A stretch of 10,368 nt of DNA from an uncultured Desulfobacterales bacterium. GTDB taxonomy: Bacteria > Desulfobacterota > Desulfobacteria > Desulfobacterales > JAFDCJ01. How positions within the stretch are numbered: the stretch's first letter is position 1; every line of letters begins with the position of its first letter. The DNA is taken from contig CALZJV010000269.1 in assembly GCA_945787595.1 (NCBI GenBank), positions 1 through 10,368 of the forward strand, given 5' to 3'. Below, in pieces: positions 3,200 through 10,194 of the stretch. The notes beneath the pieces are model-generated. The model was given only the letters and a program-made list of their open reading frames with translations, made no database searches and was not told where the DNA came from. The position numbers were made by a program, and so were the translations under genes.

Positions 3200-3475
3200 T
3201 CAGGTGACCACTTTGAAACGGTGTTCCATCCAATGGACAATGAAAGACAGGGTCACGGTGACAGCCAGATACATACCTGCCACTGTAAACCATAGTTTAA
3301 ATGTAAGAAAGGTTTCGGCAATCACGGCCTGGGCCTGCATGGTCAAATCATAAATAGCGATGGTACTGACCAGAGCTGAATCCTTGATCAGGGAGATGGC
3401 CTGGCTCGCTCGAGGAGGCAAAATCCGTCTAATGGCCTGGGGCAGCACAATCCAATAATAGGTGTCGAAGCTGCT
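3200..3475 (-). pseudogene. Permease remnant: C-terminal third of a polar amino acid ABC permease
   Basis: An open frame running from SSFDTYYWIVLPQAIRR to the end HRFKVVT matches the last ~90 residues of family permeases, including the second half of the EAA loop, and is closely similar to residues 182-271 of the intact permease at 1595-2410. The ~180 residues expected upstream are absent: a TGA (3476-3478) precedes the homologous part, and the DNA beyond it does not encode permease sequence in any frame I read. A GTG at 3448 could start an 82-residue product, but that would lack most membrane helices. It lies 22 bases before the ATPase ATG, the spacing of a former operon partner. The best reading is a deletion or rearrangement with its breakpoint near 3476. 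Confidence 0.88.
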
Positions 3476-3801: not shown

Positions 3802-4536
3802 ATGAACCTATACCAAAGCATTTCTCAAGACCTAGTTAACAGCCTATCTCTTCAGTATGAACCGGTCGGGGTAGACCTATATCAAGATACTGACGCATTG
3901 CCGATTGACATTCCATTGACCCAAAAGGAATTAAAAAGCTATTGCCAGGCATTGGTGTTGGCCGGTGAGGGTCAGATTTTTCTTCTCAGAAAGGAACAAA
4001 TGGGATGCAAACTTGGGACCTCAGTATTGGGATTTGAAAAGAAAAAGGATATGGAGGTTTATCTGGACGACGGCGTATTAGAAAAGTACGGCGTCGGACT
4101 ATTTGGTACTGAGGAAGCCTCCGCTGAAACGATTCTCAAGTCAACCTATCTGGCCAAAGGCAAAACCCAGGCTGCTTTCATCGCCCCCTTGTCTGAATTT
4201 CAACAAAAGCCACAGGTTGTGATATTCACTGCAGACAGTGAACAGGTCATGTGGCTTCTCTATGCCTTAAATTACGAAAGTGGCGGTAAGATGACTCTGC
4301 CCCAATCAGGAGGCGCATTGGGGGGGTGCTCTGACATTACGGCATTGCCTTTGCTAAAAGGGGTCCCCAACATTACCTTTCTGGGTTTGGGCTGCAGGAT
4401 GAAATCGGCCATCGGTCCCAGCCATCTTATGCTGGGTATATCAGGGGACTCATTGGATCTAATTCATGCTCACATACGGGACATGTCAAAACCGATCGCC
4501 ATGCTTGCCAAACATAGCTCAAGTGACTCGTTCTAA
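3802..4536 (+). CDS. DUF169 family protein
   Basis: Predicted cytoplasmic protein of 244 residues assigned to DUF169 (COG2043), whose biochemical role is not established. The assignment rests on the pattern SYCQALVLAGEGQIFLLRKE (46-65) followed by GCKLGTSVLGF (68-78), and on the C-terminal GGCSDITALPLLKG (174-187) and GLGCRMK (195-201). Four cysteines, C48, C69, C176 and C198, lie inside these blocks, so metal or cofactor binding is possible but unproven. The ATG at 3802 was chosen because GAAGGAG lies six bases upstream; an upstream TTG at 3787 falls within or before that site. It is divergent from the ABC operon and not in an operon with anything downstream, where a dispersed repeat follows. 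The family is common in anaerobes and methanogens. Confidence 0.85.
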   Translation: MNLYQSISQDLVNSLSLQYEPVGVDLYQDTDALPIDIPLTQKELKSYCQALVLAGEGQIFLLRKEQMGCKLGTSVLGFEKKKDMEVYLDDGVLEKYGVGLFGTEEASAETILKSTYLAKGKTQAAFIAPLSEFQQKPQVVIFTADSEQVMWLLYALNYESGGKMTLPQSGGALGGCSDITALPLLKGVPNITFLGLGCRMKSAIGPSHLMLGISGDSLDLIHAHIRDMSKPIAMLAKHSSSDSF

Positions 4537-4556
4537 TTTGTCAGATTACCAAAGAA

Positions 4557-4653
4557 AGGCATTTTAGGCAATTTAGATCACTGTAGGCATGCGTTTATTC
4601 TGCTATATCAGCCTGTTATAAAAAGGGGCGGAAATATAAGCAAACATGACAAA
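4557..4653 (+). repeat. Dispersed intergenic repeat, copy A (inverted copy at 7220-7316)
   Basis: The core 4557-4628 matches the reverse complement of 7245-7316 at 62 of 72 positions with no gap. An identical 18-base centre spans the end of tttattctgctatatcag. Beyond the core, similarity is weaker, but the 8-mer atgacaaa recurs at the same spacing (4646-4653). Copy A is also bounded by an 11-bp perfect inverted repeat, CTAATTTGTCA at 4533-4543 and TGACAAATTAG at 4647-4657, giving a MITE-like outline of 125 bp; the left arm overlaps the DUF169 stop. No transposase is present. Confidence 0.8.
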
Positions 4654-4659
4654 TTAGAG

Positions 4660-4980
4660 CTATATCAATAATTTTTCTGAATGATCTTTGATTTCATCTA
4701 AAAATATATTCTTACCTGCCAATATACTTGACTTTTGTCCATTTTTGTAAAAAAGGAAAGTAGGCAGGCCACTCACATTTAATTCAATGAGTAATTGCCG
4801 ATTGGGGCCGATCTCCATTTTATAAAAGCTGACCCTGCCCGCCATCTCATCAGCAAAGGCCTCAACCTGAGGCTTTAAAGCTCGACAAAAGCCTCATCCA
4901 ACCCCCCAAATAACAACAACGACCGGTACGCTGCTCTTTAATACATCGGACTCAAACCCAACCGCATTAACGTCTTTCAT
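4660..4980 (-). CDS. Thioredoxin selenoprotein with UGFC active site (in-frame TGA at 4894-4896)
   Basis: Thioredoxin-fold protein of 106 residues when the TGA at codon 29 is read as selenocysteine. A normal stop-based call would give only 28 codons, or a truncated 61-residue C-terminal piece starting at 4845. The protein starts MKDVNAVGFESDVLKSS, then PVVVVIWGVG-U-GFCRALKP, where thioredoxins have a WCGPC-type motif; the TGA falls exactly on the first catalytic cysteine and C32 is the resolving one. Further hallmarks are SGLPTFLFYKNG with the cis-proline at P73 and the C-terminal LAGKNIFLDEI. Length is normal for thioredoxin. AAAGGA lies nine bases before the ATG. A SECIS-like hairpin follows the TGA at the right distance. 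Expected role: cytoplasmic thiol/selenol redox transfer. The alternative is a TGC or TGT to TGA nonsense mutation; position and hairpin make selenocysteine more likely. Confidence 0.85.
4855..4876 (-). promoter_or_regulatory. Bacterial SECIS element candidate downstream of the TGA codon
   Basis: In the minus-strand mRNA, AAAGCCUCA pairs with UGAGGC-C-UUU: nine base pairs with one bulged C and a three-base GGU apical loop. The loop begins 26 bases after the UGA, within the 16-37-base distance known for bacterial SECIS elements, and has G in its first two positions as those elements require. The element would bind SelB to recode the UGA. A competing 9-bp stem uses the same 5' arm to pair with UGAGGCUUU, which contains the UGA itself (4896-4888 with 4876-4868). 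Confidence 0.75.
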
Positions 4981-5057
4981 ATTGGATTTTCCTTTCGGAC
5001 TTTAGCATGGCTCACAATAATATAACCGGAAGTTTTCGTGATATTGTGGTTCATCAT
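4977..5057 (-). CDS. Possible 26-residue leader ORF overlapping the selenoprotein start (ATGA)
   Basis: A short frame starting MMNHNITKTSGYIIV has a weak AAGG-type ribosome binding site and ends with a TGA that overlaps the ATG of the thioredoxin gene as ATGA. The overlap would allow translational coupling. No family is recognised, and such a short frame may be chance. Confidence 0.2.
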   Translation of the reverse strand: MMNHNITKTSGYIIVSHAKVRKENPI

Positions 5058-5079
5058 CTTACCTTAGCAGAAGCTTAAG

Positions 5080-5181
5080 CTATTTGACAACCGTGATTTT
5101 TTTATCGCCCGTATGGTGCCGGAAGATTTCAAATTGAGTTAACTCCATGGTTGCATCGTCAGGGTTATGTCCCGATGGAAT
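5080..5181 (-). other. Possible degenerate small coding remnant upstream of the thioredoxin gene
   Basis: The region 4981-5422 has no convincing complete gene. On the minus strand one frame reads IPSGHNPDDATMELTQFE, then IFRHHTGDKKITVVK to a TAG, and looks protein-like. Just before it, after a TAA, the same frame reads NYFKITVFVK. The two KITV-VK endings, 33 codons apart, hint at a duplicated or broken small gene. An ATG at 5148 would give 22 residues but has no ribosome binding site. The family is not recognised. A TTGACA at 5186-5191 on the plus strand has no convincing -10. Confidence 0.2.
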
Positions 5182-5422
5182 TTACTTGACAAACACAGTT
5201 ATTTTAAAATAATTTAATCCCAATATATATCGTTCCCACGACCAGTGAAACTTTCATCTGAAATGTGCCTTCGCGTTTGATTTTTTTCTTCTCATACATT
5301 CTGACTGAATTGTACTGCACTTCCTAATTATTTGCTCAGCTAAATAGATAAGCGTTTTCTTTAAACCTTGCTTTATACGCTGGGAACCTACCAATAATAA
5401 AATCTCTCCAAAGGAGGAAATC

Positions 5423-5734: not shown

Positions 5735-5846
5735 ATCCTTAGGGACGAGTTTTTTCCTCGATCACAGAATAATAGAATGGTGGTGAATGATCTTCATTTC
5801 CGGCTGAAAGTTAGGTTATGAATTTATGGTTCATAGAGGAGCGAAA

Positions 5847-6098
5847 ATGAAACTCGAGATTTTAGGAAGCTGCCCGACGTGTGAATCTTTGTTCTATGAC
5901 CGCCTTTTGCAATCCTTGGAAATAGCGGGTTTGAGGGGAAAAGTTCAGGTCGAGCGAATTAAAGACCCAAATTATTTTGTTGAATTGGGCGTATTCGCGA
6001 CACCGGCTCTCGTTTTAGACGGTGAGGTAATTTCCACCGGCAAATTGTTGATGCCGGATGAGATCTTGAGATTGCTCAAGAGCAAGGGAATAGGGTAG
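5847..6098 (+). CDS. Small thioredoxin-fold redox protein, CPTC motif (thioredoxin_3 / MTH895 type)
   Basis: A protein of 83 residues with the active-site motif C9-P-T-C12 right after the first strand (MKLEILGS), and a cis-proline segment ATPALVLDGE (51-60, P53) followed by the strand VISTGKLL. This is the minimal thioredoxin fold of the thioredoxin_3 (PF13192) family, called redox-active disulfide protein 2 in archaea and anaerobes. It likely performs cytosolic disulfide exchange. The ATG at 5847 was chosen because GAGGAG lies five bases upstream; a start at 5826 would place that site inside the gene. It ends two bases from the end of the convergent CobD gene, leaving no room for a separate terminator. 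Confidence 0.88.
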   Translation: MKLEILGSCPTCESLFYDRLLQSLEIAGLRGKVQVERIKDPNYFVELGVFATPALVLDGEVISTGKLLMPDEILRLLKSKGIG

Positions 6099-7483: not shown

Positions 7484-8287
7484 TCACATTGACTCAGTAA
7501 ATTCCAGCACTGGCTCCGCATGTTGTCGGTGATGCCGATCTATTCTAAGTTCAGCCCTCAAAGGTGTTATCTTTTTCTTCTGCTTTGCAATGATAAGGGT
7601 CCAATAATTTGGAGGCCTGGCAGCGAATTCTTTAGGGTCAGTTACAATCTCCTCCCCTGGCAGTCCACATTTGGAAATTCCGACACAATCCTGGAATAAA
7701 TCGGTTTCATCCACGGCAGAGATGATATCTTTGACATTCCGATATGCCTTCAGGAAAACCACGGTTTCCGGCTTACAGGACAATTGTCTCAGACGGTCGC
7801 CGCCTTTGACACCCGAGGTAACCAACAGTGACTCTTCACCTTCCACCAGCGGTGTGTTCAAGCGAGCTGCGGCGGCCTGGTATGAAGTGATACCGGGAAT
7901 GCTTTCTATCGTTATATAGGGTGCTGAGGCTTTGATATGTTTTAGGATATAGCCATAGGTGGAATAGGTCATCGAATCCCCAACTGTTAAAAAAGCCGCA
8001 TCTTTGCCCTGTATCAATTCATTGATAATTATGCCTGCATTTTCAGCCCATGACTTCCGAGTTTCTTTCTCATCTTTAGTCATGGGGAAAGAGAGCATCC
8101 TTATGGTAGTGGTTTCCGGGATATGAGGTTTGGCAATGTTGACAGCCAGACTGTGGTTGTTTTTGGTGGATGCCGCTGCAAAAACGACCTGCACCCGGTT
8201 TAATATTTTTGCTGACTTGAGCGTGATCAATTCGGGATCACCGGGACCAACCCCGATGCCATATAGAGTTCCTATTTTTTTATTCAT
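7484..8287 (-). CDS. cbiL: Precorrin-2 / cobalt-precorrin-2 C20-methyltransferase
   Basis: SAM-dependent methyltransferase of corrin ring synthesis that methylates C20 of (cobalt-)precorrin-2; 267 residues. The start motif YGIGVGPGDPELITLKSA (9-26) is the tetrapyrrole methylase glycine-rich loop. GDSMTYSTYGYI (103-114) and ESIPGITSYQAAAARL (128-143) are typical of the C20 enzyme. Residue 105 is S where many relatives have P. The family is usually about 230-245 residues; here a polar tail from about 240 (RIDRHHRQHAEPVLEF) adds roughly 25 residues. AAAGGGG precedes the ATG by a normal distance. It is the first recognisable gene behind a cobalamin riboswitch, so it should be repressed by adenosylcobalamin. 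The anaerobic name cbiL is used because the setting suggests an anaerobe; cobI would be the aerobic name. Confidence 0.92.
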   Translation of the reverse strand: MNKKIGTLYGIGVGPGDPELITLKSAKILNRVQVVFAAASTKNNHSLAVNIAKPHIPETTTIRMLSFPMTKDEKETRKSWAENAGIIINELIQGKDAAFLTVGDSMTYSTYGYILKHIKASAPYITIESIPGITSYQAAAARLNTPLVEGEESLLVTSGVKGGDRLRQLSCKPETVVFLKAYRNVKDIISAVDETDLFQDCVGISKCGLPGEEIVTDPKEFAARPPNYWTLIIAKQKKKITPLRAELRIDRHHRQHAEPVLEFTESM

Positions 8288-8517: not shown

Positions 8518-8575
8518 AAAGCCGTTTTCCCATCCCCCACAGAAGCAGTGAACGTACTTCTATGATGTATGGATC

Positions 8576-8766
8576 ACGTATCAGGCAGGTCTTCTGGCTT
8601 CCACGCCCTTTTAGCGGCCTTCCCATCTCGCTTTAACGGTACAGTGGCACGTCAAATGCTAAAAGCGTTCCTTTTCTCTTAAAAATGGAAAAGGCGAGGT
8701 TACAGCGGCGGTCCCGCTCCCGATTTTCACGGGATTCCCTGTTAGGCTTTAAAGCACCTAATACAC
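8576..8766 (-). ncRNA. Cobalamin (adenosylcobalamin) riboswitch
   Basis: Minus-strand aptamer of about 190 bases. Conserved blocks occur in order: TAGGTGC near the 5' end, AGGGAATCCCGTG, the core GGGACCGCCGCTGTAA, and the B12 box AGCCAGAAGACCTGCC at 8599-8584. The ends GTGTATTA (8766-8759) and TGATACGT (8583-8576) can form an 8-bp closing P1 stem with three wobbles. An intrinsic terminator follows and cbiL is the first clear gene downstream. It should shut down corrin synthesis when cobalamin is plentiful. Confidence 0.95.
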
Positions 8767-8807
8767 AGATTCTATTTTAATCTCCGGAGTATCGAATCCA
8801 GCGCCAA

Positions 8808-8941: not shown

Positions 8942-9421
8942 TCAGTCGCTGCCGGAAGCTTGGATTTTTAATTCGTTATATCGTACTTTTATGGGTTTTC
9001 TTTCCAGGATCATGCTGTAGCAAAGGCAAAATTTGGTCACGATATCCTTTGATAACGGTGTCTGGTAATGTCGCAGCCGCCCCAGCCAGCGACTGAGTCT
9101 TTGTCCGCGGATATAATCGGGTTGAAGTAAAAAATCTCTTTTGATGTCTGCCCGCAGCAACACAAAAAAAATCAGACAGGCAACAACGTAATGCTCCCAT
9201 TGATTATTTAGATCGCCCCAATAGATGTCCATACCCAATACCTTAAGCCAGGCTTCATCCGTCTCGGGGATATCGTCGATATGTTGATTTTGAATCAGTT
9301 CCTGACCCCAGGCATGAATTAAATGGTCTAGTTTATGAATCATTTTTTCTTGATCGAAAAAATCATCCGGATCAAAAACGATCTCACGGATATTTATATG
9401 GGACAGATCTTCTGAGTTCAT
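8942..9421 (-). CDS. Hypothetical protein translationally coupled to the DUF1638 gene
   Basis: A 159-residue protein whose family I do not recognise. It begins MNSEDLSHINIREIVFDPDD and is acidic at the N-terminus with several His (H8, H29, H33, H36). A tryptophan-rich middle (WLKVLGMDIYWGDLNNQWEH) is followed by one hydrophobic stretch, YVVACLIFFVLL (about 78-89), too short and isolated to be confident of a membrane anchor. The C-terminal half is basic (RGQRLSRWLGRLRHYQ). Its ATG (9421-9419) overlaps the stop of the upstream DUF1638 gene as ATGA, so the two proteins are probably made together and may interact. Codon use looks like its neighbours. It is followed by 175 bases before the riboswitch with no terminator seen. 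Confidence 0.75.
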   Translation of the reverse strand: MNSEDLSHINIREIVFDPDDFFDQEKMIHKLDHLIHAWGQELIQNQHIDDIPETDEAWLKVLGMDIYWGDLNNQWEHYVVACLIFFVLLRADIKRDFLLQPDYIRGQRLSRWLGRLRHYQTPLSKDIVTKFCLCYSMILERKPIKVRYNELKIQASGSD

Positions 9422-10194
9422 GCGCGTTCTTTTTCTCCCTGTAGATATTCTTTGGCAGACTCCCAGGTTTTTTCTAAAATATCCAGGGATCCCTGCAGCA
9501 GCTCGGTGCGAAAGCCGAATAGATGGTTAAACTCCGCAATATTATGCCTCATTTCCTCCACAGATAAAACCGGATTTGGAATTAACAACGATCTTTCGTA
9601 ATTGGACATCCCGAAGATTCGCCTGACGAACTCGGCATCAAATTTACCATATTCCATTTTAAACAGTTTTTTCCAGTGTCGGGTCCATCCCGGGATCATA
9701 AAAAAAGTTCCCGCCACCCGACATTGTTCACGATAATAACATTCGCGGCCCCCGATGATGAGACCGACGCAGTCATCAACGGGATGATCCTGATCCATCG
9801 GAATAAAGATAGGGATGCCGGCATCAGCCAGCAGTTCATGCGGTTTGTCCAGGGCATTGCCGCACAGACCATATCCCAGGACAATGGCATCCGCATAACG
9901 TCCCATATCTTTGGCTGCTTTAACAAGCCCATCTTGAAGATTGCGTTTTCGATTGTGCAGGGCCAACTCCATCACGCGCACCAACAACTCCAATCGATCA
10001 GGACAGTTTGCATCGAATTCTCTTAGAATGGGTACCCGTCTTGGAATTAAATCTAGTGACTCCAGCGCCGCTATCATTCCTAAAGAGTATCTATCCGCGA
10101 TAACCGTGACTCGGTCAACGTCCTTATCTTTTGAGAACAGATGTGCAAATTCCAATTCTAAAATTTCGCAGGTTATCACCCCCAGCACTGCCAT
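9418..10194 (-). CDS. DUF1638 domain-containing protein
   Basis: A 258-residue protein matching the DUF1638 pattern (PF07796). It has an N-terminal strand with a cysteine (MAVLGVITCEILELEF, C9), ADAIVLGYGLCGNAL (101-115), and IPMDQDHPVDDCVGLIIGG (131-149) with conserved His/Asp/Cys, followed by YYREQCR. C9, C111, C142, C152 and C158 could bind a metal or cofactor. The molecular function is not established. In methanogens and other anaerobes the family is often found beside corrinoid methyltransferase (MttB-like) and corrinoid protein genes, so a role in methyl-corrinoid metabolism is plausible but inferred. The ATG at 10194 has only a modest ribosome binding site, AAAGGGA. It overlaps the next gene by four bases (ATGA). 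Confidence 0.83.
   Translation of the reverse strand: MAVLGVITCEILELEFAHLFSKDKDVDRVTVIADRYSLGMIAALESLDLIPRRVPILREFDANCPDRLELLVRVMELALHNRKRNLQDGLVKAAKDMGRYADAIVLGYGLCGNALDKPHELLADAGIPIFIPMDQDHPVDDCVGLIIGGRECYYREQCRVAGTFFMIPGWTRHWKKLFKMEYGKFDAEFVRRIFGMSNYERSLLIPNPVLSVEEMRHNIAEFNHLFGFRTELLQGSLDILEKTWESAKEYLQGEKERA

Follow-up and report, generated by a model that had tools for sequence, protein, structure and literature searches.

A thioredoxin gene of a Desulfobacterales-type bacterium with an in-frame TGA at the first catalytic position, a probable selenoprotein

The window analysed in this work is the whole stretch of 10,368 nucleotides, and all coordinates refer to it unless another contig is named. 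Translation of its minus strand from 4980 to 4660 gives a frame whose single in-frame stop is a TGA at codon 29, within the motif WGVG-U-GFCR (Table 1). The initial annotation of this DNA had placed the TGA on the first catalytic Cys of a thioredoxin whose 106-residue frame is otherwise open and whose cis-proline segment is intact. Both statements agree with the translation, in which the segment reads GLPT, and residues 4–91 match the Pfam Thioredoxin family (PF00085) with 66.1 bits (cut-off 23.5). The thioredoxin fold was recovered in an AlphaFold2 model (mean pLDDT 90.8; TM 0.92 to spinach thioredoxin m, 1fb0) computed from 22 sequences with Cys placed at residue 29 of the modelled row. None of the 11 other frames examined in the window has an internal stop; these frames use TGG 30 times, and TGA is the ordinary stop of the CobI-like, ORF 8942-9421, DUF1638 and permease genes.

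Table 1. Features of the thioredoxin locus and its surroundings in the window.
Feature	Position	Strand	Basis or remark
DUF169 gene, convergent with the thioredoxin gene	3802..4536	(+)	PF02596, 136.3 bits
Thioredoxin gene	4660..4980	(-)	106 codons and TAG, read through one TGA; PF00085 and AlphaFold2 model
Codon of cis-Pro73 (GLPT)	4762..4764	(-)	Pro in 27/27 Sec-clade and 55/55 Cys rows
SECIS-type hairpin GCCUC-AGGUU-GAGGC	4859..4873	(-)	Kept in L001 (AGGUA) and L002 (AGGUC)
Codon TGT of Cys32, putative resolving cysteine of UGFC	4885..4887	(-)	Cys in 27/27 full-length Sec-clade rows
TGA codon 29, read as selenocysteine, putative attacking residue of UGFC	4894..4896	(-)	TGA at the same codon in L001 and L002
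Codon 23 (Val), Asp in Cys relatives	4912..4914	(-)	Val in 27/27 Sec-clade against Asp in 55/55 Cys rows
AAAGGA, possible ribosome-binding site	4990..4995	(-)	9 nt before the ATG; proposed from the upstream sequence
Cobalamin riboswitch	8567-8776	(-)	79.1 bits; upstream of the CobI gene 7484-8287

Two relatives with readable DNA were identified by scanning genome contigs. One, recorded as Desulfosarcina sp. MAG_Ve_Sed_11 (L001), encodes a protein 84% identical to that of the window; the other, 74% identical, is found on a 6.8 Mb contig of Desulfobacterales bacterium bin589 (L002). Overlapping draws of genomes returned these same two genomes only (2/291, 1/8, 1/395, 1/1, 2/389, 2/386 and 1/365), and the other matches in three of those draws (of 291, 395 and 365) have no internal stop and are 29–47% identical. 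Among viral contigs 102 stretches matched the search pattern, none of them a relative. The gene order around the thioredoxin gene of L001 is that of the window: a DUF169 gene in the same convergent arrangement (4533-5270 of its contig, minus strand; PF02596, 142.2 bits; 85% identical to its window counterpart), then an amino-acid ABC transporter whose ATPase is 94% identical between the two. The source of the window DNA is therefore fairly closely related to L001. The amino-acid ABC cluster of the window is damaged relative to that of L001, the solute-binding gene lying in two frames and one permease being reduced to its last third (610-1427 and 3203-3475, minus strand). Elsewhere in the window, the gene of a small Thioredoxin_3 protein with a CPTC motif (5826-6098, plus strand) is flanked by an ABM-domain gene on one side and a CobD-like aminotransferase gene on the other, and a DUF1638 protein (9418-10194, minus strand; 120.1 bits) adjoins ORF 8942-9421, which has no Pfam match.

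Codon 29 is TGA in all three sequences for which DNA is available (window, L001 and L002), at a divergence where 59–81% of synonymous sites differ between pairs of the three. The window and L001 genes are separated by a dS of 1.18 with an overall dN/dS of 0.063, and the ratio is 0.087 for codons 1–28 and 0.055 for codons 30–106: purifying selection acts on either side of the TGA. Between the window and L002 the synonymous sites are saturated (pS 0.81, pN 0.17) and the ratio is not meaningful.

Protein relatives were collected in two database searches, scoring in the second being limited to the 7,991 candidates with the most shared words; the 46 rows of one search and the best 120 of 154 rows of the other amount to 122 distinct rows, all of which were examined. 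They comprise 24 full-length rows with Trp at column 29, 42 rows that begin after this column, 55 rows with Cys and one distant row with Trp. Cys is found at column 29 in none of the 66 close rows (at least 54% identical over the aligned part) among these 122. The 55 Cys rows are 37–49% identical to the window protein, the best reaching 49% in the same alignment among the matches listed; for one Cys row BLAST gave a local identity of 51% over 92% of the query, which becomes 48% in the alignment. Among the matches listed, the identity of the nearest Trp rows is 92.5% with the window protein and 93.4% with that of L001. This corresponds to 8 and 7 differences over 106 positions, respectively, and includes the TGA position itself, at which these rows have Trp. 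A Trp in this column, in rows known as protein only and on contigs no longer than 2.3 kb, is expected from gene calling with genetic code 4. The initial annotation held that standard gene calling would split this gene at the TGA. All 66 close rows are either shortened or carry Trp, so that current annotation misses the active residue. The distant Trp row (P0082; 151 aa, 42% identical) reads WGDWWATC, with Trp at the first Cys column, and perhaps represents another TGA read as Trp.

In a tree of 58 rows the 22 Sec rows form a single branch (support 100/100; 19 of the 22 are labelled Sec from their Trp at column 29), to which the Cys thioredoxins of WGPxC type, 30 of the 55 Cys rows being included, are joined with support of 100/99 against the host paralogues. 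These values come from 106 columns and a midpoint root, with bootstraps that had not settled and a warning of long branches meeting.

The 42 rows that begin after column 29, and an ATG that opens a 61-residue ORF in the window (4660-4845), would be accounted for if UGA were a plain stop and the functional product a downstream piece made from an internal start. Such a piece would lack the first helix and first strands of the modelled structure as well as the first catalytic residue, however, and codons 1–28 are under purifying selection similar to that on the remainder of the gene (window against L001); we regard this explanation as very improbable. A nonsense mutation or an assembly error in an ordinary Cys thioredoxin, now a pseudogene, fits a window whose transporter cluster carries a split solute-binding gene and a truncated permease. 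The dN/dS pattern on both sides of the TGA would nevertheless not survive a nonsense mutation. The identical TGA is present in two separate relatives, no close row among those examined has Cys, and neither of the signs of decay named in the initial annotation, further stops or relaxed selection, is found: the frame has one TGA only and dN/dS stays below 0.1 on both of its sides in the comparison with L001. The pseudogene explanation is rated lower still.

The initial annotation had proposed a search for selA, selB, selC and selD and a comparison of close homologues for Cys or UGA at codon 29. The second gave TGA in both relatives with DNA and no Cys in the close rows, as described above. For the first, all four components exceed their cut-offs in the genomes of the two relatives: full-length selB (398.4 and 373.3 bits, cut-off 242.25), tRNA-Sec encoded by selC (75.7 and 75.4 bits, gathering score 47), selA (610.4 and 620.3 bits, cut-off 267.9) and selD (360.1 and 369.7 bits, cut-off 125), the last with one internal TGA in each genome. 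In 14 control genomes the cut-offs were passed by two for selB, five for tRNA-Sec, one for selA and two for selD. The tRNA-Sec match is weak by itself because five of the 14 controls also pass its cut-off; selB and selA weigh more. Ordinary Cys thioredoxins are also encoded in both relatives' genomes, and the Sec form is thus an extra paralogue. Decoding of TGA as tryptophan, under code 4 or a similar code, would give Trp29 as in the 24 full-length database rows. This possibility is as remote as that of a pseudogene: four genes of the window end in TGA, the 11 other frames examined use TGG and have no internal TGA, the relatives carry the selenocysteine genes, and Trp instead of the attacking Cys presumably leaves no redox pair.

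The initial annotation also described a bacterial SECIS-type hairpin following the TGA, within 4840-4900. A short hairpin of the form GCCUC-AGGUN-GAGGC is present in all three sequences, its loop starting 25 nt past the UGA. The A and the last U of this loop can also pair in the window, leaving GGU. The model of bacterial SECIS elements given in PMC13188914 has a loop of 3–9 nt, a stem of 4–16 bp, a G in the first two loop positions, a distance of 16–37 nt from the UGA and an MFE of at most -7.5. The hairpin fits this model in 3/3 sequences (loop of 5 nt, stem of 5 bp, 25 nt, and energies, which are approximate, of -8.6 to -11.0 kcal/mol). Two selD UGAs, from a set of three selD-matching loci with a TGA, fitted it as well. 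The model is unspecific, however: one of two unrelated TGAs fitted it too, for which reason the fit alone is weak evidence.

Conservation of the hairpin was examined at the codon level. All three sequences share the same five stem codons but differ in the Val codon of the loop (GTT, GTA, GTC); over the gene, the codon is kept in all three at 22 of the 70 degenerate columns with the same residue. The probability of such conservation is 0.002 for the five stem codons, which were picked post hoc, and 0.034 for the wider segment of codons 30–41. When the window sequence was randomly recoded with synonymous codons (usage taken from eight window genes; stem of at least five Watson-Crick pairs, at least four of them G-C, within the model limits), 1.2% of the 20,000 draws produced such a hairpin and none produced it at one position in all three sequences, a result from independent draws that ignores shared ancestry. 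No covariation could be counted, the pairs of the short hairpin being invariant across the three DNA sequences. The predicted fold of a 62-nt segment of the window is not unusually stable compared with shuffled sequences (z = -0.48), and its minimum is a competing 9-bp hairpin with the UGA itself inside the stem. This longer hairpin (UGAGGCUUU/AAAGCCUCA) was considered as the SECIS and rejected: the UGA is part of its stem, its loop is 6 nt past the UGA, nearer than the published SECIS spacing, and the 9-bp stem, intact in the window and L001, has a mismatch in L002. The SECIS element, for which the initial annotation gave only the range 4840-4900, is better placed at the short hairpin 4859-4873.

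The best explanation is that the gene encodes a thioredoxin selenoprotein of a Desulfobacterales-type bacterium with selenocysteine at residue 29, to which we assign a probability of roughly 0.93. The reading proposed initially for codon 29 is therefore retained: the TGA is shared by 3/3 sequences, purifying selection is seen on both of its sides between the window and L001, the sel genes are present in the genomes of two relatives and no close Cys row was seen among the 122. SelB and Sec-tRNA would recognize the hairpin 25 nt past the UGA and insert selenocysteine at residue 29; without this insertion synthesis would end after 28 residues. In the protein, which is probably cytosolic, Sec29 would attack the substrate disulfide and Cys32 would resolve the mixed selenenylsulfide, the reduced form presumably being regenerated by a thioredoxin reductase. 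Its role is likely that of a disulfide reductant.

The surroundings of the active residue also set this clade apart. When 27 full-length rows of the Sec clade, three of them with DNA available, are compared with the 55 Cys rows, residue 31 is Phe in 27/27 of the former and Pro in 55/55 of the latter, a contrast as complete as that at residue 23 (Table 1), while Lys at residue 54 is found in 11/27 and 52/55, respectively. Aligned to the solved thioredoxin 6ckp, residue 23 pairs with the Asp that precedes FW of the active-site strand, a position which we take to be that of the buried Asp26 of E. coli thioredoxin. There Asp26 pairs with Lys57, and in ordinary thioredoxins the buried Asp helps to handle protons. 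As judged from the alignments, Val23 and Phe31 are fixed differences between two clades and may each reflect a single event. They suggest that the selenol made the buried Asp dispensable: a selenol is ionized at cell pH, and the clade could for this reason have lost the Asp; it also carries Phe in place of Pro. The protein would then depend on selenium, which would account for the lack of close Cys versions among the rows examined. One Cys thioredoxin in the genome of L002 (L068) also seems to lack the Asp (LLFAWAPWC), and the loss of this residue is thus not bound to Sec. With the changes of Asp to Val and Pro to Phe fixed in the clade, this protein of 106 residues offers a natural test of what a thioredoxin can do without once it has selenium.

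The window protein belongs to a known kind. Sec thioredoxins (UxxC) are listed as a verified selenoprotein family in Table 1 of PMC13188914 (PF00085, representative WP_010956703.1), and PMC1794560 counts seven, naming Geobacter, Anaeromyxobacter, Carboxydothermus and Treponema denticola. The window protein shares with them, as they are described, the thioredoxin profile, the UGA at the first catalytic Cys and the Sec machinery (here in relatives' genomes), and differs in its UGFC motif, in Val at the buried-Asp position and in that no close Cys member was seen. The last point contrasts with the statement, in PMC13188914, that nearly all selenoproteins have Cys homologues: the nearest Cys rows among the matches listed are less than 50% identical. 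These nearest relatives are the thioredoxins of WGPxCxPCLALMP type (37–49% over full length; L048-L057 are from the same phylum), which have Cys29, Asp23 and Pro31 in 55/55 rows. The best NCBIfam match is ThioredTrxAClost (TrxA, NF047697; residues 1–103, E 1.1e-20), but its 73.7 bits are well below the curated cut-off of 140 and the window protein is not a member. SaoT (NF040730), described in PMC13188914 as a UxxC thioredoxin-like selenoprotein, as the window protein would be too, is not among the nine NCBIfam families that match it at E up to 0.1. In the open-licence literature searched we found no paper on this clade. What appears to be new, from sequence comparison, is therefore not the kind but a clade with no Cys in the 66 close rows of the 122 examined and with Val23 and Phe31 in 27/27.

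The neighbourhood provides a lead, and only a lead, to a corrinoid link. The cobalamin genes of the window, CobI and a CobD-like gene (275.3 bits, below the cut-off of 290.55), are at least 1.1 kb from the thioredoxin gene, and the cobalamin riboswitch is the only Rfam match in the window over its gathering score. In L002 a corrinoid adenosyltransferase frame directly follows the thioredoxin gene, an uptake set of periplasmic-binding, FecCD and ATPase genes lies divergently to it, and a cobalamin riboswitch is found at a distance of about 3 kb. No cobalamin genes were recognized in the scanned part of L001, and the corrinoid neighbourhood is given little weight on account of this difference. 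A bolder and rather doubtful proposal is that the clade is a lineage committed to selenium, in which one switch from Cys to Sec was accompanied by the loss of Asp and Pro, and any return to Cys would give an inactive protein. A ratchet of this sort, if true, would explain why the UGA is kept throughout the clade. The protein would then be a dedicated reductant of corrinoid or selenium metabolism and not a general thioredoxin, an assignment suggested by cobalamin genes near two of the three loci (window and L002, not L001).

A second thioredoxin-like frame with a TGA at the first catalytic Cys (WAPW-U-PSC) was observed on the minus strand of another contig (L078; G001:C49:6-122), where the contig end cuts it off. 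Its likely counterpart in the other genome is L068, mentioned above, which has TGT at that codon (WAPWCPTC); the two would form a Sec/Cys pair in another thioredoxin subfamily.
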